The position numbers and the translations under genes are program-made. The notes under the pieces are model-generated. The model ran no database searches. It saw only the letters and a program-made list of their open reading frames with translations, and had not been told where the DNA came from. DNA of 40,788 nucleotides. Source: Sandaracinus sp. (GTDB lineage: Bacteria > Myxococcota_A > Polyangia > Polyangiales > Houyiibacteriaceae). Of this stretch, positions 2-13,822 are shown in pieces. The DNA is taken from contig PABA01000171.1 of the NCBI GenBank assembly GCA_002699025.1, forward strand, positions 1 through 40,788. Direction: 5' to 3'. Every line of letters starts with the position of its first letter. Within the stretch, counting starts at the first letter, position 1.

Positions 2-1792
2 GGCGTGGGCGCCTTCCCGAGCGACTGCGACGACGCCGACGACGCCCGCTACCCCGGCGCGCCCGAGCTCTGCGACGGCGTCGACAACGACTGCGACGAC
101 GAGGTCGACGAGGGCGACGATGCGAGCCTCTGCGACCTCCCGAACGCGAGCGGCACCTGCACCGCGAGCGCCTGCGTGCTGAGCTGCGAGGGCCGCTTCC
201 TGGACTGCGACGGCGAGCCGCTCACGGGCTGCGAAGCGGACCCGATGAGCGACCCGCGGAACTGCGGCGCCTGCGGGAACGACTGCGGGCCCGTCGATGG
301 CGGCTCGTCGCTCTGCGTCGACGGCGCCTGCGCGCTCTCCTGCGATCCGGGCTTCGGCGACTGCGAGAACGGGGCCGCCGACGGTTGCGAGGCGAGCCTC
401 ATGGACGACCCACTGAACTGCGGCGCCTGCCGCGCACGCTGCGAGCCGGGCCCGAACCAGGTCGCGTCGTGCGACGCGGGGGTCTGCGAGACGGCCTGCG
501 TCGCGGGCTTCGAGGACTGCAACGGCGACCCGGCAGACGGCTGCGAGGCGGAGGTCGCCTTCGACCCGGCGCACTGCGGGAGCTGCGGCGCGGCCTGCCC
601 CGGCGCGACCGACGCCTGCGTCTCGGGCCTCTGCCAGGCGGCCGCCTTCGAGAGCGACGGCTCGGACGGCGCCTTCATGCCGACGGAGGACACGGAGCTC
701 GACGCCGGCGTCTACCAGTTCACGACGATCGTCATCCCGGCGGGCGTGACCGTGACGACCAACGGCACGGACGTGCTCGAGCTCTACGCGAGCGGGGACG
801 TCGTCGTGGAGGGGACCATCGACGTCTCGGGCGGCCCCGGCGGCGCGAGCGTCGGGCACGCGACGTGCGAGATGACCTCCGGCGGAGGCGTCACCGGCGA
901 CGCCGACGCCCCCGCTCCGACCGCCGTGGACGACGGCGTCTGTCGCGACGGCGGCGGCGGCGGCAGCGGCGTCCCGGGGAGCCCCGCGCGCGCCGTTCCC
1001 ACGGCCCCCAACATGTGCGTCGACGGCTCCGAGGGGCGCTTCGGCGGCGGCATGGGCGCCGTCGGTGCGCTGGGCTGCCAGACCAGCGCGGGCGGCGGCG
1101 GCGGCTACGCGGGCGGCGGGGGCGGGACGAAATGCGAGAGCTCCGTGCCCTTCGTGGACGGCGGAGACGGCGCATCGATCGCCGGCGTATCGACGGGCGG
1201 CGCGGGCGGCCCGGACGACTGCAGCGTCGGTGGAGGCGGCGGGGAGCCGGGCTTCGGTGCCTACTCGGGCGGCAACGGCGGCGGCAACGTCGGCGCCACG
1301 GGGGGCGGCGGCGGCTCCATCGGGCGCGACGCCATCGCGGACCTCGCGGTGGCCACCACCTTCCGACCCGGCAGCGGGGGCGGCGGCGGCGGCCACAACC
1401 GCGGCGAAGGCGGCGGCGGGGGCGGCGGCGGCGGCGGCGCGCTGCGCATCGCCTCGGCCACCTCCATCACCATCACCGGTCGCCTGCTCGCGAACGGCGG
1501 CCCGGGCGGGCCGCGGTTCGGCTTCGGCAACGGCGCCTCGGGCGGCGGGGGCTCGGGCGGTGTGATCTACCTCGCCGCGCCGGAGCTCTCGACCGCGGGC
1601 GAGGTCTCCGCCGTGGGCGGCGTGGCGCCGGCGGACGACAGCGGCGCCGGCGGCCTCGGCCGCATCCGACTCAGCACCATCCCCGAGCGCTGCTCGCTCG
1701 CGGGCACCTTCGAGCCGCGACTCGCCGACGGCTGCGCCCGCACGGACCCGGCCGTGCCCGAGCGCGTCTACATCGACGTCTACCCGTTCTGA
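2..1792 (+). CDS. MopE-like Cys-rich and Gly-rich secreted protein, 5' end missing
   Basis: The frame is open to the left edge, so the true start and any signal peptide lie outside the window. The N-terminal part holds an Asp-rich motif of the putative metal-binding MopE type (DCDDADD, then YPGAPELCDG and DNDCDDEVDEG). Three Cys-rich units of about 50 residues follow, each with the pattern C-x3-G-x2-DC-x7-GCEA-x5-DP-x2-CG-x-C-x3-C. From about residue 215 there is a beta-rich stretch, then some 300 residues dominated by runs of glycine, and a short Cys-containing tail ending in YIDVYPF. In the family such proteins are secreted or surface-bound; their roles are mostly unknown, with metal binding proposed for MopE itself. 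No enzyme signature is visible. The next gene runs in the same direction 50 bp downstream but appears to have its own promoter. Confidence 0.85.
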   Translation, partial: GVGAFPSDCDDADDARYPGAPELCDGVDNDCDDEVDEGDDASLCDLPNASGTCTASACVLSCEGRFLDCDGEPLTGCEADPMSDPRNCGACGNDCGPVDGGSSLCVDGACALSCDPGFGDCENGAADGCEASLMDDPLNCGACRARCEPGPNQVASCDAGVCETACVAGFEDCNGDPADGCEAEVAFDPAHCGSCGAACPGATDACVSGLCQAAAFESDGSDGAFMPTEDTELDAGVYQFTTIVIPAGVTVTTNGTDVLELYASGDVVVEGTIDVSGGPGGASVGHATCEMTSGGGVTGDADAPAPTAVDDGVCRDGGGGGSGVPGSPARAVPTAPNMCVDGSEGRFGGGMGAVGALGCQTSAGGGGGYAGGGGGTKCESSVPFVDGGDGASIAGVSTGGAGGPDDCSVGGGGGEPGFGAYSGGNGGGNVGATGGGGGSIGRDAIADLAVATTFRPGSGGGGGGHNRGEGGGGGGGGGGALRIASATSITITGRLLANGGPGGPRFGFGNGASGGGGSGGVIYLAAPELSTAGEVSAVGGVAPADDSGAGGLGRIRLSTIPERCSLAGTFEPRLADGCARTDPAVPERVYIDVYPF

Positions 1793-1825
1793 CCCCGGGG
1801 TCGACGCCGCGAACCCGTTTCGCGC

Positions 1826-1831
1826 TATCGT
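1826..1831 (+). promoter_or_regulatory. Candidate -10 box TATCGT
   Basis: TATCGT lies 11 nt before the ATG at 1843, so a start site about 7 nt downstream would leave a leader of only a few nucleotides. No convincing -35 is seen. It fits the TAnnnT pattern found before many genes in this window. Confidence 0.45.
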
Positions 1832-1842
1832 GCGGGCCTTCG

Positions 1843-3021
1843 ATGCGCTTCGCCCCCCTTCTCTTCGCCGCTGCCCTCCCCCTCTCCGTCGCCTGCTCCG
1901 CCGGCGAGACCGTCGATCGGCGCCCGCGGGACGCGGCCGTGGACGCGGGCGAGGTCGACGCGGGCCCCACGGGCACCGACGCGGGACCCACGGGCACCGA
2001 CGCCGGCCCCATGGGCATCGACGCCGGCCCCATGGGCATCGACGCCGGCCCCATGGGCATCGACGCCGGCCCGGGCGTCGACGCCGGCCCGCCCCGCGGG
2101 GACGGCCAGTACCTCGACGAGTGCTCGGCCCCCATCGACTGCGTGAGCGACCTCTGCGTCGCCGACGGAGCGACCCGCCGCTTCTGCTCCCGCTCCTGCA
2201 CGCGCCACGGCGACTGCGCCGACGAGCACGTCTGCGCGGGCGGCGCCTGCGTCCCCGACGACTCGGGCACCATCTGCCCCGTGGCGACGCCCGAGGTCTG
2301 CGCCACCGGGCTCTGCCTCGGCCCGAGCGGCGGCAGCGGCCAGTGCACGCGGGACTGCGAGAGCGCCCTCGACTGCCCGGCCGGCTGGGCCTGCACCGAG
2401 CCGCCCGGCGGCGGCGCCTTCCGCATCTGCGTCGACATCGAGAAGCCCTGTACGGCCGGTGGCACCGAGTGCGGAACCGGCCTGTGCATCCCGGACCTCG
2501 GCTGCACCGCCACGTGCCGCGGCGCCGCCGACTGCCCCTCGCGCGCCACCTACCTCGGCCTCCCCGCCTACCGCTGCGCCGCCGCCTTCGGCTCGAGCGT
2601 GCCCATCTGCGCGCCGCCCGTCGCGGGAGACGGCATGGGCGGCGACATCCGCGGCGACGACGCCATCGGGACCGTCTGCCCCGCGAGCGGCTTCAACGAG
2701 TGCCGGAGCGGGCTCTGTGTCGACTTCGACGAGACCGACGCCAACCCGCCGATGTGCACGCAGGTCTGCGGCGCCGAGGGGGGCTGCGCGCCGGGCTTCG
2801 GCTGCAAGCCCGAGGTGCTCGACGACGGCAGCATCCGCACCTTCTGCGCGCGCGCCGGCGGCCGGGTCCTCGGCGAGAGCTGCGGCGCCGCCCGCGACTG
2901 CCAGAGCGCCCTCTGCGACACGGGCGGCTACTGCACGCGCCTCTGCCAGGACGGCCTCTGCCCCACCGGCTGGCGCTGCGAGCCGCTGCCGGGGACGACG
3001 CTGGGCCTCTGTCGTCGCTGA
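1843..3021 (+). CDS. Cys-rich lipoprotein with DAGP-repeat linker
   Basis: A 392-residue predicted lipoprotein. The start at 1843 gives a clean signal peptide (MRFAPLLFAAALPLSVAC) with lipobox SVAC, so Cys18 would be lipidated. A low-complexity linker follows, with heptads DAGPTGT twice and DAGPMGI three times, coded by near-identical 21-bp units. The remaining 300 or so residues are Cys-rich modules of the form C-x4-DC-x3-LC and C-x-C-x4-DC, resembling small disulphide-bonded modules of myxobacterial surface proteins. No catalytic motif is seen. The protein is probably anchored to the outer membrane with the Cys modules exposed, and the linker acts as a flexible spacer. Its role is unknown. 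It follows the MopE-like gene on the same strand and may work in the same surface layer. Confidence 0.85.
   Translation: MRFAPLLFAAALPLSVACSAGETVDRRPRDAAVDAGEVDAGPTGTDAGPTGTDAGPMGIDAGPMGIDAGPMGIDAGPGVDAGPPRGDGQYLDECSAPIDCVSDLCVADGATRRFCSRSCTRHGDCADEHVCAGGACVPDDSGTICPVATPEVCATGLCLGPSGGSGQCTRDCESALDCPAGWACTEPPGGGAFRICVDIEKPCTAGGTECGTGLCIPDLGCTATCRGAADCPSRATYLGLPAYRCAAAFGSSVPICAPPVAGDGMGGDIRGDDAIGTVCPASGFNECRSGLCVDFDETDANPPMCTQVCGAEGGCAPGFGCKPEVLDDGSIRTFCARAGGRVLGESCGAARDCQSALCDTGGYCTRLCQDGLCPTGWRCEPLPGTTLGLCRR
1957..2061 (+). repeat. Five 21-bp tandem units coding DAGP heptads
   Basis: Five in-frame 21-bp units code DAGPTGT, DAGPTGT, DAGPMGI, DAGPMGI and DAGPMGI. The last three are identical at the DNA level, which points to recent slippage or unequal exchange. 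Further DAGP pieces flank the array. Confidence 0.85.
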
Positions 3022-3050
3022 GGCGCCACCGAGGGACATCGAAGAGACAC

Positions 3051-3087
3051 GAAACCGTGCCCCTGCCCGTGCCCCTGCCCGTGCCCG
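3051..3087 (+). repeat. GAAACC-(GTGCCC/CTGCCC)n intergenic element, copy 1
   Basis: GAAACC is followed by alternating GTGCCC and CTGCCC hexamers. It lies in the 173-bp gap between two convergent genes. The same element with the same edge occurs at 5165-5201 (inverted), 35575-35612 and 35688-35715. Confidence 0.75.
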
Positions 3088-3194
3088 CAGGCCGCACGAA
3101 CCTACGGCGAGCTCGCGGGGGCCTCGCCCCGCCCAGCCCCCCCGCGCTGCCTCACCCCCACGCCCCATCACCAGCCGGGGCCGGCCCGGCGCCC

Positions 3195-3935
3195 TCACTC
3201 CTCCGCGCGCGACACCGCGTCGAAGTACCCGGCGAGCGTCGCCCCCACCTGCACGCCGAGCAGCCGGTCCGACGCGCCCCCCGGTGGGTTCCGCCCGTCG
3301 CCGGCGAAGGCGAGGTCGCCCGCCAGACCGACCCGGCGCACCACCCGCGCGCTCAGCGAGAGCCCGGCGTTCTCGCCGAGCCCGATCTCCGTGCCCAGCC
3401 CGGCCGAGGCGTCGACGAAGAACATGCTGAGGCTCGGGCACTCCTCGGTCGTCATCTCCACGTGCGCGGCGTCCGGATCCGGCGAGCTGCCGATCCCGAG
3501 GCCGGCCCCGAAGACGGCGAAGAGCTGCGCCCGATGCCACGGGTTGGCGTAGAGCCGCGCGTCGAGGCGGAGGCCCATCTCCATCCAGGCGTCCCGGAGG
3601 TCGGGGCGCTGCACGCGGCCGCCGCCGAGCCCGAGCGCCAGGTCCACGGCGAAGTACCCCATGTTCGGCCGGATGCGCAGGCCGAGGTCGACGCGGCCGC
3701 GCGAGAGGTCGCCGCCGCTGGGCCCGACCCCCGCCAGGTAGTCGGTCGCGAAGAAGAAGCCCACGGAAGGTCGCGGATCGACAGGAGCGGGGGTGGCGGC
3801 CTCGGCGCCCACCCGTTCGCGGGGGGCCGCGGCGGCGTCGCCCGCGGCGAAGCCGGCCGCCGGCCGCTGCGCCTCGACGCGCGGCGCGAGGGCGAAGGCG
3901 AGAAGGACCACGACCCCGAACGCGAATCTCCCCAT
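3195..3935 (-). CDS. Predicted outer-membrane beta-barrel protein
   Basis: A 246-residue exported protein. The start at 3935 was chosen because it gives a proper signal peptide (MGRFAFGVVVLLAFALAP, then RVEAQ); the longer open frame upstream reads as low-complexity sequence. After a short Ala/Pro linker (residues about 25-55), the chain alternates polar and hydrophobic residues with many glycines and aromatic girdle residues (VGFFFATDYLAG, MGYFAVDLALGLGG, AQLFAVFGAGLGIG). It ends in a strand ending LAGYFDAVSRAEE. This is typical of small eight- to ten-stranded outer-membrane barrels. A Cys is present in TTEECP. No specific family is recognised, and a transport or structural role cannot be told apart. 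It runs convergent to the Cys-rich lipoprotein gene and lies 114 bp downstream of another exported lipoprotein on its own strand, so the two could share a transcript. Confidence 0.75.
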   Translation of the reverse strand: MGRFAFGVVVLLAFALAPRVEAQRPAAGFAAGDAAAAPRERVGAEAATPAPVDPRPSVGFFFATDYLAGVGPSGGDLSRGRVDLGLRIRPNMGYFAVDLALGLGGGRVQRPDLRDAWMEMGLRLDARLYANPWHRAQLFAVFGAGLGIGSSPDPDAAHVEMTTEECPSLSMFFVDASAGLGTEIGLGENAGLSLSARVVRRVGLAGDLAFAGDGRNPPGGASDRLLGVQVGATLAGYFDAVSRAEE

Positions 3936-4049
3936 GGGAGGTTTCTGGGGAGAGGCGGCGCCCGGGTCAACGGAGCCGCTGCGCCCCGGCGGAGCTCGGG
4001 CGTCACCCGACCGGCAGGGCATCTCCGCGCTCACCGTCGCGGGCGCGGG

Positions 4050-4934
4050 CTACTCCTCCTCCCCGAAGAGCGTCAGCGCGACCGCCAGGACGCGTTCGTT
4101 CTCCGCTTCGGCGCCGCCCAGGGAGAAGGTGACCTCGCGCAACCCGCTCACGCTCCAGTAGAAGCTGGCCGGCGCGTCGCGATGGACCCGATCGAAGAAG
4201 CCCCGCAGCCCGTCCTGCGTCCTCCCGTCGTCTAGGTCGTCCTCGAAACGCAGACGGACCTCGGCCCAGACGACGTCTCCCCGCTCGAGCAAGCTCGCGT
4301 CGACGCGGCGCATCGCCGGGATGCCGATGGTGGCGAAGGCCGCCTGCATCTCGGCGATGCCCGGGTCTCGGTAGTGCCGGAAGTCGGTGCCGAGAGTCAC
4401 CACCTGGCGACCCGCATGGCAGCCTGAGCCGCGCGGCGGAGCCCAGCCACGCCAGCCGCCGACCCCGAAGCCGTGGAAGCCATCCCCGAAGTCCTGCCAG
4501 CGGAGCTCCCCGGGCGCCACGGCGAGAGCGCGCCGGACATCGGGTCCGGGGGGCGGACCGTCCGTGCGCAAGATGACGAAGACATCGTCCCGCGCGTCGA
4601 TCGAGCCGGCCGTGGGCGGCTTGCCGTCGGGCGTCCGGATGGCGAAGCCGACCTCGCGGACGCCCTCCAATGCCACGTCCCCGTCGAGGATCGCGGAGGC
4701 GGACCGCGCGAAGATGCGCTCGTACGCCGGGGCGCGACGGGCGGCATCCACGTCCAGGCCGACGGCGAACGTGGACTCCTGCGGCAGGAAGTCGACGGCG
4801 TGGAGCTCGCATGACGGTCGGGCGCGCGCCGCATCCGTGCTGCCCCGATCCCCGGAGGACGAGTGGGCGGTCGACCCGCAGCCGAGCGCGAAGAAAAAGA
4901 GGAGGAGGAGCGAGACCCGGAGTCGACGGCGCAT
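4050..4934 (-). CDS. Lipoprotein of unknown function
   Basis: A 294-residue lipoprotein with signal peptide MRRRLRVSLLLLFFFALGC and lipobox ALGC (Cys19), then a Ser-rich linker. The mature part begins with a conserved-looking ELHAVDFLPQESTFAVGLDVDAARRAPAYERIF-type stretch (split here: ELHAVDFLP, then FAVGLDVDAARR), which resembles periplasmic proteins that measure or hold values over a beta fold, but no Pfam name can be given with confidence. Two Cys (SGCHAGRQ region and the N-terminal SCEL) could form a disulphide. The C-terminal part (SFYWSVSGLREVTFSLGG) is beta-rich. The start at 4934 is supported by the signal peptide. Its first 26 codons and upstream leader are tandemly duplicated at 5004-5155, leaving a second truncated copy. 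Confidence 0.75.
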   Translation of the reverse strand: MRRRLRVSLLLLFFFALGCGSTAHSSSGDRGSTDAARARPSCELHAVDFLPQESTFAVGLDVDAARRAPAYERIFARSASAILDGDVALEGVREVGFAIRTPDGKPPTAGSIDARDDVFVILRTDGPPPGPDVRRALAVAPGELRWQDFGDGFHGFGVGGWRGWAPPRGSGCHAGRQVVTLGTDFRHYRDPGIAEMQAAFATIGIPAMRRVDASLLERGDVVWAEVRLRFEDDLDDGRTQDGLRGFFDRVHRDAPASFYWSVSGLREVTFSLGGAEAENERVLAVALTLFGEEE

Positions 4935-5233: not shown

Positions 5234-8200
5234 CTACCTCAGCGTGATCTCCCGCGCCTCCGCCTCGTCCACCGCGCGGCACCAGCTCGCGAAGCGCGGG
5301 TACTGCGCCGGGCTCACGCGCATCAGCGGCACCCGCAGGCTCCGCGAGATCACCAGGTGCTCCCCCTCGCGCTCCGCGCTCATCGCGAAGCGCACGTCGC
5401 CCGGCCCTTCGAGCTCCACCGGCTGCATCGCCGTCGCCGGCGCCCCGTTCGGCGTCGTCACCCGCAGCACCACGTCCTGGTTCAGCGGCGGCCCGACCAC
5501 CTGCGTCGTCCGCCGCGTATCCGTCCGCGCGAAGCGCGGCCCCAGCACGCTCGGGAAGAGCCCGGGCAGCACCCGCGCGTCCCCCTGCTCCCGCGCCAGC
5601 GCCGGCACCCGCGCCGCGTAGCGCAGCACCAGCGGCTCCTCCGGGTTCTCGCGCCCGGTGATCCGCAGCGACTCGAGCGACGCCCCGTTCAGCATGCGCG
5701 CCACGTAGGCCTCCTCGAAGCGCTGCTCGAGCACGGCCTCGGGGATGCCCTCGAGGTCGTTCCGCCACTGGATCGCGCCCGTCCCCTGGAAGGTCTCGAC
5801 CACCTCCACCTGGGCCGACCCATCCGGCGCCACGTCCGCCGTCACCTCCACGCGGTGGTGGTCCTCCTCGCCGGTCGCCGGCGGCAGCCGGATCTCCGTC
5901 GCGTCGCGCGCGTCCGCCACCGGCCCGAGCACCAGCGCGTCCTGCCCGTGGAGCGCCGGCGAGACGTAGCCGAAGGGGATGCCCCGCGCGGTCGGCTGCA
6001 GATAGGTGTCCTCCCCGAGGCGCACGATCAGGTTCGTGTAGGTCTCCTCGTCGGCGAGCGCGCTCTCGGTCTGGTCGCTCCCGAAGCCGCGCGCGAGCAC
6101 GAGCTGCGAGTCCACGTCCACCAGCCCCAGCAGGTAGTGGAGCACCCGCGCCCGGTTCCCCGTCCGCCCGGCGAGCATCACCGCCGCCTGCCCGAAGACG
6201 TCGTTGTTGTTCTCGACGTTCTCGAGCAGCCAGTAGTAGAGCGCCCGCGCCTTCTCCTCGTCGCTCGTGGCCTCGCCGACGATCTCCCGCGCCAGCGCCC
6301 GCGCCGCCGGGTCGACCATCTCCCGGTCGGCCAGCACGTCCCGGAGGCCCTCGAGGAAGCCGCTCCAGTCCGCGTTCACGCCCCAGTTCACCGAGGGGAT
6401 GAACTCGCGCGCCGCCACGCTCGCCGGCTCCTGCACCAGCGGCGTGCTCTGCTCGATGGCCCAGCGCAGGACGACCTCGCCCTCCTCGCCCGTGCTCCGC
6501 TGCACCTCGGGCGCGTCGCCGCGCGGGTCGATCAGCGGGTCCATGCCCTCGGGCAGGATCACCACCAGCTCCGAGCGGTCGAAGGGCAGCTCGAAGCTCG
6601 CGAAGAAGAAGCGGTCGCCGAGGAGCCCGTTCGGCAGCCCGTCCGGCGGCCCGAGCACGCGCACGTACTCCGCCTCCACGTAGTCGCCCACCGCGAGGTT
6701 CGGCATGGAGATGGTCTCCTTGCCCGGGATGAGATCCGGCTCGAGGCGCGTGCCGTCCGCCTTGATGGTGCGGAGGCCCAGCATGTAGCCGTCCTCCGGC
6801 GGCGCGTACTCGCCCTGCGCGTCCACGGCCTCCTCGCTCTGCAGCTTGTAGATCTGGTGGATGAGCTGGAGCGACGAGCCGTCCTCGAAGACGCGCACGA
6901 CCATGTAGTCCCAGACGAGCACCTGCGGCTCGTCGTAGCTCCGCTCGCTCGCCTCGAAGGCCTCGATCATCTCGGGGCCGTTCTTGCGCCAGCCCTCGAA
7001 CTCGAACTCGCCCCCGAGCGCCGTGCGGATGCGCCGAAGCCGCGCCATGGCCGCCGGCTCCTCCTCGAGGGCCTCGTTCATCACCTGGATCGCGCCCGCC
7101 GTGTCCCCCTGGGCGAGGCGCCGGTCGGCGCGGGCGAGGCGCACCGTGTCCGTGCGCGGCGAGGCCTCCTGCATGGCCTGGAGCACGCGCTCGATCGTGT
7201 CGGCGTTCGCGCGCCCCTCGGCGAGGTCGAGGCGGCTCGGGAGGAAGCGCGCCTGCGCGTGCTCGGGCTCGAGGGCGATGAGCCGGTCGAGCTCCTGCTT
7301 GGCCTCCTCCCACTTCCGCGCCTGCACGAGCTGCTGGTAGCGCTCGCTCCGCCGCGCGTCGCACTGCATGAGCTCGCCCGTGTAACGGTCGATCTCCGCG
7401 ATGTGGTCGTGGCGCTGGGCGAAGGCGAGGGCGGCCTCGACGGGCGGGCAGGCCTCGGGCACCTGGTCGATGGCCGCCTCGATGTGCTCGGCGGCTTGCG
7501 CGTCCCAGCCGCGGTTGAGGAGGAGCTGCACGAGCGTGAGCCGGAAGGCGGCGAGCTCGGGCCAGCGCTGGACGTCCTCCCGGAGCTCGGCGAGGGCCTC
7601 GAGGTCGCGCCCCTCGGCGGCCATCAGCCGGGCGAGCTGGAGCCGCGGGAACCAGGCGGCCTCGTCGTGCTGGGCGACGGAGCGGAGCGCGGCGCGGGCC
7701 TGGTCGCGGCGCATGTCCGAGGTGATCAGCGGGTCGGCGAGGGCGATGGCGGCCCGCAGCGCGCCGGCGATGGGCGAGGCGGGCGTGTCGCCGAAGGGCG
7801 CGAGCGCCTCGCGGGCCTGCACGACCGAGCCGCGGCTGAAGACGGTGGCGCCGCGCACATAGGTCGCGAAGAGGCCGCCGGCCGCGTCGGGGAGCGCGTG
7901 GGGCGCCTCGCCCTTCTCGAGGGCGACCATGAGGATCGGGTTCGGGTGCCGGGTCGTAACCTTCACGGCGATCTCGTGGCGGCCCGGCGCGAGGTCGAGG
8001 GCGTGGAAGGTCACGCGCTCGAGGGGCTGGCGCCGGTGGTCGAGGCGCAGCACGCGCTCCCCGTCGACGCGGAGCTCGACCGAGTTCGGCGTCTCGAGGC
8101 GGAGCGTGTGCAGGCCCCCCTCCTCGACGTCTACGAAGGCCTCGGCGTAGGTGGTGCCGCCATCGGCGATGGGCCCGGCGCCGAGGTGCACGGCGCAGCC

Positions 8201-8908
8201 GCGGCCCTCGACCTCGCGGGTCGGGCGGACGCCACGACGCGGGCCGAGGTCGACCTCCGCGGGGAGCGGCCCGGTGGCGAAGGCCTCGCCGTGATCCCGG
8301 TCGAAGCCGAGGAGCGCGCGCGGGCCGAAGGGGCCGGCGACCTTCCACTCGGTGACGCAGCCCTGGGCCGCGGCGTGGCGGCGGACGGCCTCCACGTCGC
8401 CGCGCCGGTAGGCGAGCTCGACGAGCACGTCCACGGCGGTCTGGCGCGCGCCGAGGGGGAGGTCCGCGAGCATCGCCTCGAGGCGCGGCCCGGCCGTGCT
8501 CGGGAAGCGCGGCGCGATGTGGGTGAGCTCCTCGACGCCGCTCGCGGCGAGCTCGGCCACGGCGGGCTGGCGCGTGCCGGCCTCCTCCATGGCCTCGAGG
8601 AAGCCGTCGAGGGCGGCCGCGGGCTCGCCATGCACGTAGGCGAGGAGCGCGCGGAGGAGCGCGACCCGGCCGTCGCGCGCGCGGAGCCGCTCGGCGCGGG
8701 CGAGCACCTCGGCGGCGCGGCCCGGGTCGCCGTCGTCCCGGAGCAGCTCGCCGGTGGCGAGGGCCCACTGCGCGTCGAAGTCGTTCGGCGCCTCGGCGGC
8801 GGCCTCGCGGAGGTCGTCGATGGTGACCTGGCGCGGGGTCTCGGCGCCGCCGCGCGGGCAGGCGGCGAGGGAGAGGGCGAGGAAGAGGAGCGAGAGGGTC
8901 CGGGTCAT
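5234..8908 (-). CDS. TPR/DUF3857 protein with a transglutaminase-like fold lacking the catalytic triad
   Basis: A 1224-residue exported lipoprotein (MTRTLSLLFLALSLAAC, lipobox LAAC). TPR-like helices (about 30-160) are followed by a beta-sandwich region (EWKVAGPFGPR to HEIAVKVTTRHP), more TPRs (about 350-600), a DUF3857-like region (VWDYMVVRVFEDGSSLQ onward) and a transglutaminase-like core. Aligned to the adjacent paralogue, the catalytic Cys is Thr916 (GRTGNR for GDCKDK), the His is Asn959 (YTNLIV for FDHAIA) and the Asp is Gln971 (YLQPTA for YIDGTA). The fold seems kept but the enzyme should be dead. A C-terminal beta-rich domain follows. The start at 8908 is chosen for the signal peptide; ATG 8995, 5 nt after the upstream stop, is an in-frame alternative with a 29-residue extension. 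It lies 92 bp downstream of the intact paralogue, probably in one operon. Function is unknown; a partner or scaffold role is inferred. Confidence 0.85.
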   Translation of the reverse strand: MTRTLSLLFLALSLAACPRGGAETPRQVTIDDLREAAAEAPNDFDAQWALATGELLRDDGDPGRAAEVLARAERLRARDGRVALLRALLAYVHGEPAAALDGFLEAMEEAGTRQPAVAELAASGVEELTHIAPRFPSTAGPRLEAMLADLPLGARQTAVDVLVELAYRRGDVEAVRRHAAAQGCVTEWKVAGPFGPRALLGFDRDHGEAFATGPLPAEVDLGPRRGVRPTREVEGRGCAVHLGAGPIADGGTTYAEAFVDVEEGGLHTLRLETPNSVELRVDGERVLRLDHRRQPLERVTFHALDLAPGRHEIAVKVTTRHPNPILMVALEKGEAPHALPDAAGGLFATYVRGATVFSRGSVVQAREALAPFGDTPASPIAGALRAAIALADPLITSDMRRDQARAALRSVAQHDEAAWFPRLQLARLMAAEGRDLEALAELREDVQRWPELAAFRLTLVQLLLNRGWDAQAAEHIEAAIDQVPEACPPVEAALAFAQRHDHIAEIDRYTGELMQCDARRSERYQQLVQARKWEEAKQELDRLIALEPEHAQARFLPSRLDLAEGRANADTIERVLQAMQEASPRTDTVRLARADRRLAQGDTAGAIQVMNEALEEEPAAMARLRRIRTALGGEFEFEGWRKNGPEMIEAFEASERSYDEPQVLVWDYMVVRVFEDGSSLQLIHQIYKLQSEEAVDAQGEYAPPEDGYMLGLRTIKADGTRLEPDLIPGKETISMPNLAVGDYVEAEYVRVLGPPDGLPNGLLGDRFFFASFELPFDRSELVVILPEGMDPLIDPRGDAPEVQRSTGEEGEVVLRWAIEQSTPLVQEPASVAAREFIPSVNWGVNADWSGFLEGLRDVLADREMVDPAARALAREIVGEATSDEEKARALYYWLLENVENNNDVFGQAAVMLAGRTGNRARVLHYLLGLVDVDSQLVLARGFGSDQTESALADEETYTNLIVRLGEDTYLQPTARGIPFGYVSPALHGQDALVLGPVADARDATEIRLPPATGEEDHHRVEVTADVAPDGSAQVEVVETFQGTGAIQWRNDLEGIPEAVLEQRFEEAYVARMLNGASLESLRITGRENPEEPLVLRYAARVPALAREQGDARVLPGLFPSVLGPRFARTDTRRTTQVVGPPLNQDVVLRVTTPNGAPATAMQPVELEGPGDVRFAMSAEREGEHLVISRSLRVPLMRVSPAQYPRFASWCRAVDEAEAREITLR

Positions 8909-9000
8909 GGCGTGGGACGCGGTCGCGAAGGAGGTCGAGGAAGTCGCGAGGGGAGAGGGGCGGTGCGAGGTCGTCGGCGTCGGGGTCGTCGGCATGGCGC

Positions 9001-12000
9001 TCACCGGCTCCCCGTCTCGAGGATCAGGCGCTGGCGGAGGATCTGGTCGACCTCCTCCACCCAGCGGCGGAAGGCCGCGTACTCGCCGGGCCGGAGCCGG
9101 TCGCGGCGGAGCTCGAACTCCGTGCGCATCTGCACCTGCCCGGCGCTCCGCTCGACGGTCATGGCGAGCTTGCCGAAGGGGCTCTCGGCCGTGCCGCCCT
9201 CGGGCACCTGGGCCGCCTGGGCGCCGCGCGGCAGCCGCACCGTGCGCTCCTCCACGTACGACGACGTGCCGCCCAGATCCATCGGGTACTCGCGCGTCGG
9301 CGTCCGCGCGAAGGCCCGCGTCAGCTCGCCCATGGTCGAGGGATCCGCGCGGAGCCGCTGCCCATCGCGCTGCGCGAGCTGCGGCACCTCGGCCTCGTAG
9401 CGGACGCTCACGTCGCCCTCGAGCGTGTCGAGCCCCTCGAAGCCGACCTCCTCGAGCCGCAGCCCGGGGAAGAGGTTCCGCAGCGAGCGCTCGAAGCGAT
9501 CGCTCCGCGTGCCCTCGGCCTGGTAGGTGCTGCGGTAGCCGGGCGCCTGGGCGCCCGTGATCACCTCGCGGCCCTCGATGGTGGCCGAGCCGTCGGCGGC
9601 GAGGCGCACGTCGAGGGTGCGCTGGCGCCGGTTGCGCTCGGGCGGGAGCACGGGCGTGCGGCGGAGCTCGGAGCCCTCGGGCCAGACGTGCAGCACGGTG
9701 ACGCCCTGGTCCATCTCGGGCAGCTCGGTGACGCCCGAGTGCTCGGCCGTGCCGTCGATGTAGAGGTCGAGCTCGGGCACGTAGGCGATGGCGTGATCGA
9801 AGACGGCGAGCGAGGCCGGCAGATCGGTGATGCGCCCGTTCCGCCGCGTCCGCACGAGCACCATGTGCGCGTCGATGCCCGCCTCGCGGAACATCGTGTA
9901 GAGGAGCGAGGCCTTGTCCTTGCAGTCGCCGAAGCCGCGCTGGACGATCTGCGTCACGCGGTAGGGCTTGTAGCCGTGGATGCCGAACTCGAGGCCCACG
10001 TAGCGCGTGTTCTCGACGACCCAGTCGTGGATGGCGACGACCTTCTCGCGGAGCGTCTCCTTGCCCGCGACGAGCTCGCGCACGGTGCGCTTCAGGGCCT
10101 CGTCGGCGATGAGCTGGTCCTGGATGAGCCCCCAGTACCAGGTGCCGACGTCCTCCCAGGTCCGGTAGGTGCTCACGTGGAGGTAGGGCGCGATCTCGGT
10201 GAAGCCGGGCATGTTCGGCTCGGAGCGGATCGCCGGCACGTCCTCGGCGACGTAGCGGTCGATGCGCTGGCCGTCCTCCGTCGTGCGCGCATGCGCGAGC
10301 CCCTCGAGGCTCGGCTCGTTGAAGAAGAACTCGCGCCCCTCCGGCGTGATGAGCACGTACTCCTTGTGGCGGATGGGCTGGAAGGCCTGGAAGAAGCTCA
10401 GGTCGCCGTAGTAGTCGGCGAAGAGGTTCCGGTGGGCCACGTCGTCGATGCGCCAGCGGAGCTCGACCACGTCGCCGGGCTCGAGGTCCGGGAAGACGAC
10501 GACGCGCGCGCGGGTGTCGTAGTAGATGCGGTACCAGGGCTCGCCGAGCTGCTGCTCGAAGGCCTGGGTCGCCTCGAGGGTCGTCCCGTCGGCGCGGTGC
10601 ACGCGGGCGAGGCGCACGTCGACGCGCTGGGAGGTCGGGTCGAACTGGATGGCGTAGGTGCGGAACTGGCGCGCGCCCTCGTCGTCGTGGACCTGCACGG
10701 CGATCTGCCGGAAGGAGGAGCCGAGGCCGTTCTCGAAGACCGTGTTGACGGTCAGATCCTGAAGCGTCGTGAGCGGGAAGCCGCCGCTCTCGCCGCGGCG
10801 CGCGAGCAGCTCCTCTTCTTCGACGGCGTAGGCCTCGTCGGCGCGCTGCTGGGGCTCGATCTGCTCGAGGAGCTCGCGTGTGGCGGCGTCCTGCGGGCGG
10901 ATGTCGAGGGCGGCGCGGAAGGCGTCGCGGGCCGCGTCGGTCTGCTGCAGGCGCCAGAGCATCTGGCCCTGGGCGACGAGCGTCGGCGCGTCCTCGGGGG
11001 CGAGCTGGCGCGCCTGCGTGAAGGCGGCGAGGGCCTGGTCCGTGTCGCCGATGGCCTCGTAGATGGCGGCGACGTAGCGGAGGTTCTGCACGGAGGCGGG
11101 GGCGTTCGCGCGGAGCGCCTCGAGCTGCTCGGCGACGGCGGCCCGGTCCCGGCGACGCACGGCGTCGGCGACGAGCACGCGGCGGCTCGGGCGATCGTTC
11201 CAGCGGGCGGCCACGGCCTGCTCGCGGAGCGCGATGGCGCGGTCGTGGCGGCCGGCGGCGCTCGCGTACTCGGCGCGGAGGCGGAGCCAGCCGTGGGCCT
11301 CGGGGGCGCGCTGGGCGACCTCGTCGACGAGGCGCCAGGCGGCCTGGGGGAGGTCCATGTCCTGGAGGATGCCCGCGCGGAGCACGGCGGCCTCCATGCC
11401 GAGCACGCCCTCCTCGGGGACGCCCTCGAGGAGCGGCAGCGCGTCCTCCGGGTGGAGGCCCGCGCGCGTCACCTGCGCGTGGAGGAGGCGCGCGGCCGGG
11501 CGGCTCTCGTAGCGCTCCATGGCGCGCTGCACGTACTTGGTGGTCTCGCTCCGCTGCGTGGCGAGCCGCGCGGCGAGCTCGAGGTGCGCGAGGCTGGGCT
11601 CGGCCTCGGCGGCGCGCGCGGCGAGCTGGCGGCCGCGCTGCTCGTTCGGGTCGTCGGCGCCGGTCCAGACGAGGTAGCGCGCGAGGTCGTAGAGGGCCGC
11701 GGCGGGCGCGTCCTCCCCCTCGGCGGCGGCCTCGAGGCGCGCGAGGATCGTCTCCGGCGCGCGCGGCAGGCGGGCGACGCCGTGGCCGGCCCCGGCGGCG
11801 TCCTCGATGGTGCTGCCGTCGACGCGCACGCCGCGCGCAGGGCGGTTTCGGGGATCGACGACGCGCAGGTAGAAGCCCCAGGCGCCGTCCGTGATGCAGC
11901 TCTTCACCAGCAGCCGGTTGGCGCCCTCGTGCGCGCCGACCAGGGCGACGTGCCGGTCCGGGTCCGGGCTCCGGTAGACGTCCTCGCGGTGGACCTCCTC

Positions 12001-12684
12001 GCCGTTCCACCAGATCTTCGTCGCGCCGCCGGCGCCGACCCAGAGGGCGAGGGGCTGGGCGCGCTCCGAGTGCACGGTGGTCTGGGCGTAGCCGCAGACG
12101 TTCTGGCGCGGGCGGAAGAGGGCGTCGAAGTCGACGTAGCCGACGCGGGAGATCGGCGGGTAGGGGCGCCACGCGACCTCGCGCTCCTTGCCCGGGTAGC
12201 GGACGGCGGCGGCGAAGGGCTGCATGGCGGCCTCCTCGGGGCCGAAGGCGCGCTCGAAGCCCTGCTTGCCCTCGTTGTCGAAGGGGCCGATGAGCTGCCA
12301 GCTCGTGACGTAGCCGAGCCGGTCGACGAGGGCCTCGGCGTCCTCGAGGCGGCCGGCGCGGATCAGCGCGCGGGCGCGGAGGGCCTCGGCGTAGGCGCGG
12401 CGCTCGGCGGGGACGCGGCGGCCCTCGGCGACGCCCTCGAGGGCCTCGAGGACGGCGCTCGGCGTGGTCTCGTCCCAGGCGCGCCAGAGCTCGAGGAGCG
12501 GGAGGATGCCGGCCGGGCCGCGCTCGCGGATCGCGTCGCGGGCGAGCTCGGCGGCCTGGGCGTCGTAGGGGTTGGCGGCGCTCGAGGCGGGCTGCGCGGC
12601 GGCCGGGGTCGGCGGGAGGGCGGCGGGCGCGGCGGCGAGAGCGAGGAGCGCGGCGAGGACGGCGCGAAGCGAGCGAGGGCGCAA
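9001..12684 (-). CDS. TPR/DUF3857/transglutaminase-like exported protein with intact triad
   Basis: A 1227-residue secreted protein with signal peptide (RAVLAALLALAAAPAALPP, cleaved near AAAQ). Order: helical repeats (about 35-110), a beta-sandwich region (SWQLIGPFDNEG to NRLLVKSCITDG), TPR-like repeats (about 300-610, including LAAFTQARQLAPEDAPTL), a DUF3857 domain (about 640-820, with YRIYYDTRARVVVFPDLEPG), a transglutaminase-like core and a C-terminal beta domain (STSYVEE-type strands). The triad is Cys921 (GDCKDKASLLY), His964 (FDHAIAYV) and Asp977 (YIDGTA), as in active members of the PF01841 superfamily. Such proteins are usually periplasmic peptidase or crosslinking candidates of unknown substrate. 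The start is TTG at 12684, supported by GGAGG at 12690-12694 with 5-nt spacing. It is divergent from the UbiA-family gene and followed by its inactive paralogue. Confidence 0.87.
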   Translation of the reverse strand: MRPRSLRAVLAALLALAAAPAALPPTPAAAQPASSAANPYDAQAAELARDAIRERGPAGILPLLELWRAWDETTPSAVLEALEGVAEGRRVPAERRAYAEALRARALIRAGRLEDAEALVDRLGYVTSWQLIGPFDNEGKQGFERAFGPEEAAMQPFAAAVRYPGKEREVAWRPYPPISRVGYVDFDALFRPRQNVCGYAQTTVHSERAQPLALWVGAGGATKIWWNGEEVHREDVYRSPDPDRHVALVGAHEGANRLLVKSCITDGAWGFYLRVVDPRNRPARGVRVDGSTIEDAAGAGHGVARLPRAPETILARLEAAAEGEDAPAAALYDLARYLVWTGADDPNEQRGRQLAARAAEAEPSLAHLELAARLATQRSETTKYVQRAMERYESRPAARLLHAQVTRAGLHPEDALPLLEGVPEEGVLGMEAAVLRAGILQDMDLPQAAWRLVDEVAQRAPEAHGWLRLRAEYASAAGRHDRAIALREQAVAARWNDRPSRRVLVADAVRRRDRAAVAEQLEALRANAPASVQNLRYVAAIYEAIGDTDQALAAFTQARQLAPEDAPTLVAQGQMLWRLQQTDAARDAFRAALDIRPQDAATRELLEQIEPQQRADEAYAVEEEELLARRGESGGFPLTTLQDLTVNTVFENGLGSSFRQIAVQVHDDEGARQFRTYAIQFDPTSQRVDVRLARVHRADGTTLEATQAFEQQLGEPWYRIYYDTRARVVVFPDLEPGDVVELRWRIDDVAHRNLFADYYGDLSFFQAFQPIRHKEYVLITPEGREFFFNEPSLEGLAHARTTEDGQRIDRYVAEDVPAIRSEPNMPGFTEIAPYLHVSTYRTWEDVGTWYWGLIQDQLIADEALKRTVRELVAGKETLREKVVAIHDWVVENTRYVGLEFGIHGYKPYRVTQIVQRGFGDCKDKASLLYTMFREAGIDAHMVLVRTRRNGRITDLPASLAVFDHAIAYVPELDLYIDGTAEHSGVTELPEMDQGVTVLHVWPEGSELRRTPVLPPERNRRQRTLDVRLAADGSATIEGREVITGAQAPGYRSTYQAEGTRSDRFERSLRNLFPGLRLEEVGFEGLDTLEGDVSVRYEAEVPQLAQRDGQRLRADPSTMGELTRAFARTPTREYPMDLGGTSSYVEERTVRLPRGAQAAQVPEGGTAESPFGKLAMTVERSAGQVQMRTEFELRRDRLRPGEYAAFRRWVEEVDQILRQRLILETGSR

Positions 12685-12694: not shown

Positions 12695-12884
12695 GAGAGG
12701 GGGCGCGGGGCGCGGCTCGGCGCCGGGCGCGCGGTGCGGACGGCCCCCAGACGTGGTGTGCGGGAGCCGCCCGGACGGTACTGACAGGCTCTTCAGGGGA
12801 CAAGCGCCGGGGGCCCGATGTTCCCGGGCGGGGCGACGAAAGCGGGCCGGAGCGCCACTTGCTGGCGCCGATCGCCCGCCGCGG

Positions 12885-12890
12885 TAGAGT
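12885..12890 (+). promoter_or_regulatory. Candidate -10 box TAGAGT
   Basis: TAGAGT ends 8 nt before the ATG at 12899. A start site 6-7 nt after the box would make the mRNA essentially leaderless. A possible TTGCTG lies at 12859-12864, but the 20-nt spacing is poor. Confidence 0.5.
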
Positions 12891-12898
12891 CCGCCGCG

Positions 12899-13822
12899 AT
12901 GGCCGAGGAGGGGCAGAAGGCGGGCGGACCGCCGAAGAAGGGCGCCGTGCGCGGGCTCCTGAAGGCCATGCGCCCCCACCAGTGGGTCAAGAACGGCTTC
13001 GTCGTGGCGCCGCTGGTGTTCGCGAAGGGGCTCGGCGACGTGCCGATGATGACGCGCTCGGGGATCGCGTTCCTGCTCTTCAGCTTCGCGGCGAGCTCGA
13101 TCTACCTGATGAACGATCTCGCCGACATCGAGGCGGATCGGGCGCACCCGAAGAAGCGCTTCCGGCCGATCCCGGCGGGCGAGGTGCCGCTGGGGATGGC
13201 GAAGGCGGCGACCGGGGCGCTGATGGTGATCGCGTCGGCCGGGGCGGCGCTGATGGGGTGGACGGTCGCGGCGGCGATCGTCGGCTACGTCGTGCTGCAG
13301 ATCGCCTACACGTTCCGGCTGAAGCGCATCCCCTACGTGGACGTGCTCTGCATCGCGGCGGGCTTCGAGCTGCGGGTGCTGGCCGGGAGCTTCGCGCTCC
13401 GGGTGGAGCCGAGCGTGTACCTGCTGGTGGTGACGCTGCTGCTGAGCCTCTTCCTCGGGTTCGGCAAGCGCATGCACGAGCTGCGGCAGGCGGGGACCGA
13501 GGAGAAGAAGGCGCAGCAGCGGAAGGTGCTGACGGCCTACAGCGAGAAGACGCTGATCGTGCTCTTGCAGTTCACGGCGCTGGCGACGACCGGCACGTAC
13601 GTGATCTACACGCTGGACCCGCGGACGCGGGAGGCGTTCGGGACGGACTACCTGGCGGGGACGATCGTCTTCACCGAGTTCGGCGTGCTGCGCTTTCTGG
13701 ATCTGGTGCGGCACAAGAGCGACGCCGAGAGCCCGACCGAGCAGATGCTCAAGGACTGGCCGTTCCTCTTGAACCTGGTCTTCTGGGCGATCGCGGTGGT
13801 CGCGGTGATCTACTTCACCTGA
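12899..13822 (+). CDS. UbiA-family prenyltransferase, decaprenyl-phosphate phosphoribosyltransferase type
   Basis: A 307-residue polytopic inner-membrane protein. The first Asp-rich motif is NDLADIEADRAHPKKRFRPI (N72, D73, D76, D80), and the second loop is LKRIPYVDVLCIAAGFELRV. The N-terminal RPHQWVKNGFVVAPLVF and the HPKKR/RPIPAG signature match the decaprenyl-phosphate 5-phosphoribosyltransferase branch (the mycobacterial Rv3806c type), which transfers phosphoribose from PRPP to a polyprenyl phosphate. Several hydrophobic helices are clear (IAFLLFSFAASSIYLM; YLLVVTLLLSLFLGF; LLNLVFWAIAVVAVIYF). The start at 12899 was chosen because it follows the -10 box closely and leaves a short charged N-terminus. 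In this genome the product would feed a lipid-linked pentose for envelope glycans; this is inferred. It is divergent from the transglutaminase-like pair. UbiA paralogues with other acceptors cannot be excluded. Confidence 0.82.
   Translation: MAEEGQKAGGPPKKGAVRGLLKAMRPHQWVKNGFVVAPLVFAKGLGDVPMMTRSGIAFLLFSFAASSIYLMNDLADIEADRAHPKKRFRPIPAGEVPLGMAKAATGALMVIASAGAALMGWTVAAAIVGYVVLQIAYTFRLKRIPYVDVLCIAAGFELRVLAGSFALRVEPSVYLLVVTLLLSLFLGFGKRMHELRQAGTEEKKAQQRKVLTAYSEKTLIVLLQFTALATTGTYVIYTLDPRTREAFGTDYLAGTIVFTEFGVLRFLDLVRHKSDAESPTEQMLKDWPFLLNLVFWAIAVVAVIYFT

Follow-up and report, generated by a model that had tools for sequence, protein, structure and literature searches.

The closest solved relative of the proteins described here, and the only one that we found by sequence, is the structure 3kd4 (BDI_1141 of Parabacteroides distasonis), in which DUF3857, a transglutaminase-like domain and DUF3858 follow one another in the same order as in the cores of our two proteins, A and B. 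The profile matches to it are at 1.6e-19 for A and 9.4e-7 for B. What sets A and B apart from 3kd4 is that each has TPR arrays and a beta-sandwich at the N-terminus in addition. A and B come as a pair. 3kd4 itself seems to be without the catalytic Cys (GFGDCKDKASLL aligned to AYGTPLEIAQLL). Hence, its annotation as a 'putative protease' may be wrong, and dead members of the family may be common outside Myxococcota.

LapG, a transglutaminase-like cysteine protease of the periplasm, is recruited by the membrane partner LapD (PMC4359373). Among transglutaminase-like proteases that a membrane partner recruits, this is the nearest known case to A and B. However, LapD is a c-di-GMP receptor of the inner membrane and no paralogue of its enzyme, and A has no match to the LapG family profile (bacterial transglutaminase-like cysteine proteinase) in Pfam at E-values up to 1. 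In the rlo operon of Pseudomonas, RloB presents an inactive transglutaminase domain to the periplasm and is encoded together with an exported protease (PMC12239564), but RloB spans the inner membrane with seven helices, and the protease beside it is an aspartic protease, unrelated to RloB and hence not a paralogue. Transglutaminase domains that have lost one or more of C, H and D are also found in polymorphic toxins, where peptide-binding anchoring has been proposed for them (PMC3482391). In contrast to B, these domains are N-terminal in a toxin with RHS repeats and have no active paralogous partner. CspC and CspA of Clostridioides difficile belong to a subtilisin-like family that is unrelated to transglutaminases. 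They are dead protease relatives that serve as signalling partners (PMC12880746), and they differ from B in both family and cell setting.

Enzyme–pseudoenzyme pairs and inactive transglutaminases are known, and what is new is the A–B pair itself, which is real and conserved. No published account of it was found in the literature searched, nor any literature on DUF3857 combined with transglutaminase or on a pseudoenzyme combined with transglutaminase-like. DUF3857 received a single passing mention in the open literature searched, for a Xanthomonas gene adjacent to lolA (PMC6341742). The A–B pair gives a first lead on DUF3857. It is also rare that genome data alone suffice to name the likely partner of a bacterial pseudoenzyme.

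The pair lies in a 40,788-nucleotide stretch of Sandaracinus sp. DNA, the window, from a host genome of 9.2 Mb (Table 1). Gene A starts with TTG, with GGAGGT ahead of it, and encodes an ordinary type of signal peptide, TPR repeats, a W..GPF beta-sandwich, DUF3857, a transglutaminase-like core and DUF3858, in this order. Its Transglut_core match (PF01841, 5.8e-12) scores 46.3 bits, above the curated cut-off of 23, and this score together with the Cys/His/Asp triad marks A as a predicted active-type member of the transglutaminase-like superfamily. The corresponding Pfam scores of B are just below the cut-offs, both for DUF3857 (24.2 bits vs 24.6) and for Transglut_core (18.0 bits vs 23). Directly ahead of the DUF3857 match of B is the N-terminal part of this domain (residues 645-735), which is the most conserved region of the protein. 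The labels on B's close relatives are Polyangiaceae, Myxococcales and Myxococcota. Judged by sequence, the two proteins are paralogues at a very great distance, for which BLASTP gives a single match, of 117 residues with 29% identity and E = 0.002, in the N-terminal beta-sandwich. At the Cys site their alignment is gap-free (RGFGDCKDKASLL in A vs MLAGRTGNRARVL in B) and credible, since the family profiles and the model of B's core agree. Both reading frames, their lengths, the gap between them and the residues at the three catalytic positions are as the original prediction gave them, and the TPR, beta-sandwich, DUF3857 and transglutaminase-like parts that it assigned to both proteins indeed occur in the same order.

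Table 1. Positions of the two genes and of their functional and altered sites in the window.
Feature	Position	Strand	Basis
Gene B, 1224 aa: predicted lipoprotein and paralogue without the Cys, domain order as in A	5234..8908	-	reading frame, Pfam, model
B transglutaminase-like fold, residues about 846-1011, active site dismantled	5876..6373	-	VIA-align to human TG3, Z 7.6
B Gln971 codon, Asp position	5996..5998	-	A/B alignment and family profiles
B Asn959 codon, His position	6032..6034	-	A/B alignment and family profiles
B Thr916 codon, Cys position	6161..6163	-	A/B alignment and family profiles
B DUF3857 match, residues 732-823	6440..6715	-	Pfam, just under cut-off
B lipobox Cys17 codon (LAAC)	8858..8860	-	sequence; lipobox kept across B family
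92-bp gap from the stop of A to the start of B; gene B downstream of A	8909..9000	-	sequence
Gene A, 1227 aa: exported transglutaminase-like protein of the active type	9001..12684	-	reading frame and Pfam
A Asp977 codon	9754..9756	-	Asp in 115/115 A homologues
A His964 codon	9793..9795	-	His in 115/115 A homologues
A Cys921 codon (GDCKD)	9922..9924	-	Cys in 115/115 A homologues
A segment IHGYKPYRVT ahead of Cys, without counterpart in B	9952..9981	-	A/B alignment
A DUF3857 domain, residues 652-819	10228..10731	-	Pfam 3e-30

Beyond this genome, pair regions were collected among relatives and across both the class and the phylum, and all frames in them were scored with profiles of A and B. Among the Myxococcota homologues, every one of the 115 A copies has Cys-His-Asp, whereas the Cys is present in none of the 121 B copies in which the site could be aligned, a contrast that is far beyond chance. 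In the same 121 copies His occurs in 11 and Asp in 30, and all three residues never occur together. Thr916, Asn959 and Gln971 of gene B are hence best read as one draw from a freely varying site. The Cys column follows a conserved Trp position by 33 residues in 112 of the 115 A copies vs 21-25 residues in 116 of the 121 B copies, and 116 of 121 B copies are without some 10 residues just ahead of the Cys position. The gap in gene B falls on IHGYKPYRVT, which belongs to a near-invariant stretch of A. With this segment lost, B is more than a point-mutated enzyme, and its pocket is rebuilt. When 234 cores were placed in a tree with FastTree, a single branch (support 99) separated all A from all B. 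Such a division across the sampled phylum rules out a recent loss of the triad in B, and as far as these homologues tell, the A/B pattern is ancient and phylum-wide in Myxococcota.

B is under purifying selection, with dN/dS values between close relatives of 0.11-0.36, compared to 0.11-0.26 for A. The distribution of conserved residues differs between the two proteins. Conservation in A peaks in the transglutaminase-like domain (JSD 0.617), whereas in B this domain reaches 0.450 and the highest value, 0.534, is that of DUF3857-N, with Asp667, Tyr668, Asp676, His684, Lys716 and Asp718 as its conserved residues. The constraint on B has thus moved from the active site and the transglutaminase-like domain to DUF3857. 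Conserved Cys pairs (197/263 in A, 184/238 and 487/516 in B) suggest disulphides in an oxidising compartment.

Confidence in the model of B's core is modest (mean pLDDT 62.5, with low values over the first 200 residues), and the model of the whole of B is too poor to be used beyond the TPR part (mean pLDDT 55). The core model matches 3kd4 with a Foldseek value of 3e-13 and a Z of 10.3. Its residues 207-372 superimpose on the core of human transglutaminase 3 (VIA-align Z 7.6, rmsd 4.0, 138 residues), and as a Z near 8 is seen for unrelated folds too, the weight of this result is in the transglutaminase matches spanning exactly the expected domain. Within the confidence of the model, the core of B would retain the transglutaminase-like fold.

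In 110 of 123 cases, A is immediately followed by B on the same strand. Six of the remaining 13 are at contig ends (L071, L075, L079, L177, L219 and L221). In one, L102, a single gene of about 397 aa at 9323-10516 is between A and B, the sole such case seen. In the other six, B has no adjoining A (L173, L175, L179, L181, L192 and L239; L179 starts about 1.2 kb from the contig end), and a strong A is present elsewhere in each of these six genomes. The distance from the stop of A to the start of B in the relatives has a median of about 6 bp, an estimate that assumes a 19-residue signal. A second A–B pair is found in the host genome (L069:5879-13515, G000:C37) and also in several relatives. It forms one clade in the tree of A (99) and one in the tree of B (100), with largely matching genomes, so the A–B unit was copied whole, and the duplicate is old. 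Genus g2 of the same family as the host has neither A nor B. In two fragmented genomes (G209 and G140) A is strong, and the match to B is only weak or partial. In the strongly diverged pairs L095 and L106, a large lipoprotein without the Cys comes directly after A, and the arrangement in L257 and L258 is alike. Taken as a survey of gene content, these data show A and B to be kept, duplicated and apparently lost together as a unit.

The original prediction of a lipoprotein B and a soluble A turns out to be a family-wide contrast. By a strict rule, a lipobox is present in 85 of 116 full-length B proteins vs 3 of 103 A proteins, one of the three being the unpaired L110. Nearly all of the other 31 B proteins have, by eye, a hydrophobic stretch that ends in Cys; L215 is without one, and the N-terminus of B is unreadable in L088 and L219. 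B is hence a predicted lipoprotein throughout the family, and A almost always has a predicted ordinary signal peptide. Among the strict lipobox hits of B, Gly or Ala occupies position +2 in most cases and Asp in none, which under the E. coli sorting rule for lipoproteins suggests the outer membrane as the destination. Four active relatives with no B detected beside them (L110, L251, L252 and L253) are lipoproteins in their own right. As L251-L253 are one clade and L110 stands apart, they represent no fewer than two lineages. A clear lipobox is missing from L249, L250 and L254; the former two are near contig ends and L254 is shorter. The four unpaired lipoproteins, a small sample from few lineages, give a hint that the lipid anchor may have moved from the enzyme to its dead partner.

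A TPR-less version of the pair occurs in family f22 (L244, positions 426-4584, L245 and L246). Its first protein is of the active type, with GVCRD, FNHA and DPT motifs. The second is a lipoprotein in which GDDRDK-like letters replace the Cys site, the Asp is kept and the His is either lost or kept. One tree places this dead protein within the active clade, whereas a mixture-model tree gives it one origin with the main B (support 43). A second, independent origin of the pseudoenzyme in the f22 short pair is therefore possible. With a pair that is phylum-wide, present in many copies and accompanied by natural variants (duplicated, unlinked, unpaired and anchored, short), the role of the dead paralogue is directly testable.

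None of the findings that would have refuted the original prediction turned up: no B homologue keeps the Cys, the frame of B is under purifying selection, and the pair co-occurs throughout the phylum. As a sequence pattern, a retained and probably non-catalytic role of B in a two-protein unit is therefore well supported, and so is the combination of an anchored pseudoenzyme with a free enzyme. The further proposal was that B may capture substrate or regulate A. Of its possible forms, substrate capture by way of the former groove is the least convincing and is disfavored, since the segment ahead of the Cys position is lost and the site is no longer specially conserved.

The explanation that we prefer, with a probability of roughly 55%, is that A and B make up an ancient unit of two genes for the cell envelope of Myxococcota, in which B anchors or scaffolds A at the outer membrane. 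By sequence, A is exported and has an intact transglutaminase-like Cys-His-Asp site, and B, encoded downstream in the same orientation, is a lipoprotein that shares the domain order of A and whose site is dismantled. B would be located at the outer membrane, on its periplasmic face, and would bind A via its DUF3857, beta-sandwich or TPR parts, a pseudo-symmetric heterodimer or a scaffold being the most likely form, thus placing soluble A at the membrane and perhaps switching it or supplying it with substrate. The targets of A would then be envelope proteins, whose peptide bonds it would cleave or use for acyl transfer. This explanation is favored by the invariant triad of A and the missing Cys of B, by their adjacency and short gap, by the retention of A when it is unlinked, by the whole-unit duplication and the joint absence in genus g2. 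It is also favored by the dN/dS of B, the lipobox in B and not in A, the shift of constraint to DUF3857-N, the four unpaired active lipoproteins, and the core of B that folds like 3kd4 and TG3. Counting against it are the modest model of B, the small number of lipoproteins and lineages behind the anchor hand-over, and the fact that old linked duplicates can persist for shared expression alone. In a wider and more tentative form, the pair would be a phylum-wide two-protein envelope machine whose lipid anchor was handed from the enzyme to its dead paralogue, with single active lipoproteins in some lineages and a heterodimer of soluble enzyme and lipoprotein pseudoenzyme in most, possibly evolved more than once, as the f22 short pair may indicate.

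The linkage and co-inheritance data also fit a B that regulates A instead of anchoring it, holding A off or completing it until a signal arrives. The enzyme-like fold retained by B would be suited to this, and LapD, by which the transglutaminase-like protease LapG is sequestered (PMC4359373), offers a precedent. However, there is no signalling domain among the Pfam matches of B, and although sequence does not separate a regulator from an anchor, the lipid anchor suits scaffolding at least as well. We consider this explanation unlikely, although it ranks first among the rivals. Ranked behind it is a B that acts alone, for instance as a TPR/DUF3857 adaptor or a binder of envelope proteins, whose position next to A reflects an old tandem duplication and a shared promoter. 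The great distance between the two proteins and the location of B's conserved residues in DUF3857, away from the old site, would agree with such independence, but A and B are both kept when unlinked, were duplicated as a unit and are jointly absent. A new catalytic activity of B is improbable. The invariant polar residues Asp667, Tyr668, Asp676, His684 and Lys716 in DUF3857-N would be candidates for it, whereas the transglutaminase-like domain has no conserved nucleophile; we know of no activity of DUF3857. Finally, the triad loss, if taken alone, would also fit a decaying, pseudogene-like copy, a reading with practically no chance of being correct: long open frames throughout the phylum and the dN/dS of B rule out decay, and the conserved lipobox and the single ancient origin of the main B clade speak against it as well.

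No fixed third partner gene was found beside the A–B pair in the fetched loci. Upstream of the pair, 16 of them share a divergent gene of the UbiA-like kind, and the few other recurrent neighbors are confined to particular lineages. In the window, a divergent gene for a UbiA-family prenyltransferase (PF01040) is upstream of A at 12818-13822 (+), and a gene at the left edge, 5-1792 (+), encodes a protein with a MopE-type metal-binding motif (PF11617).
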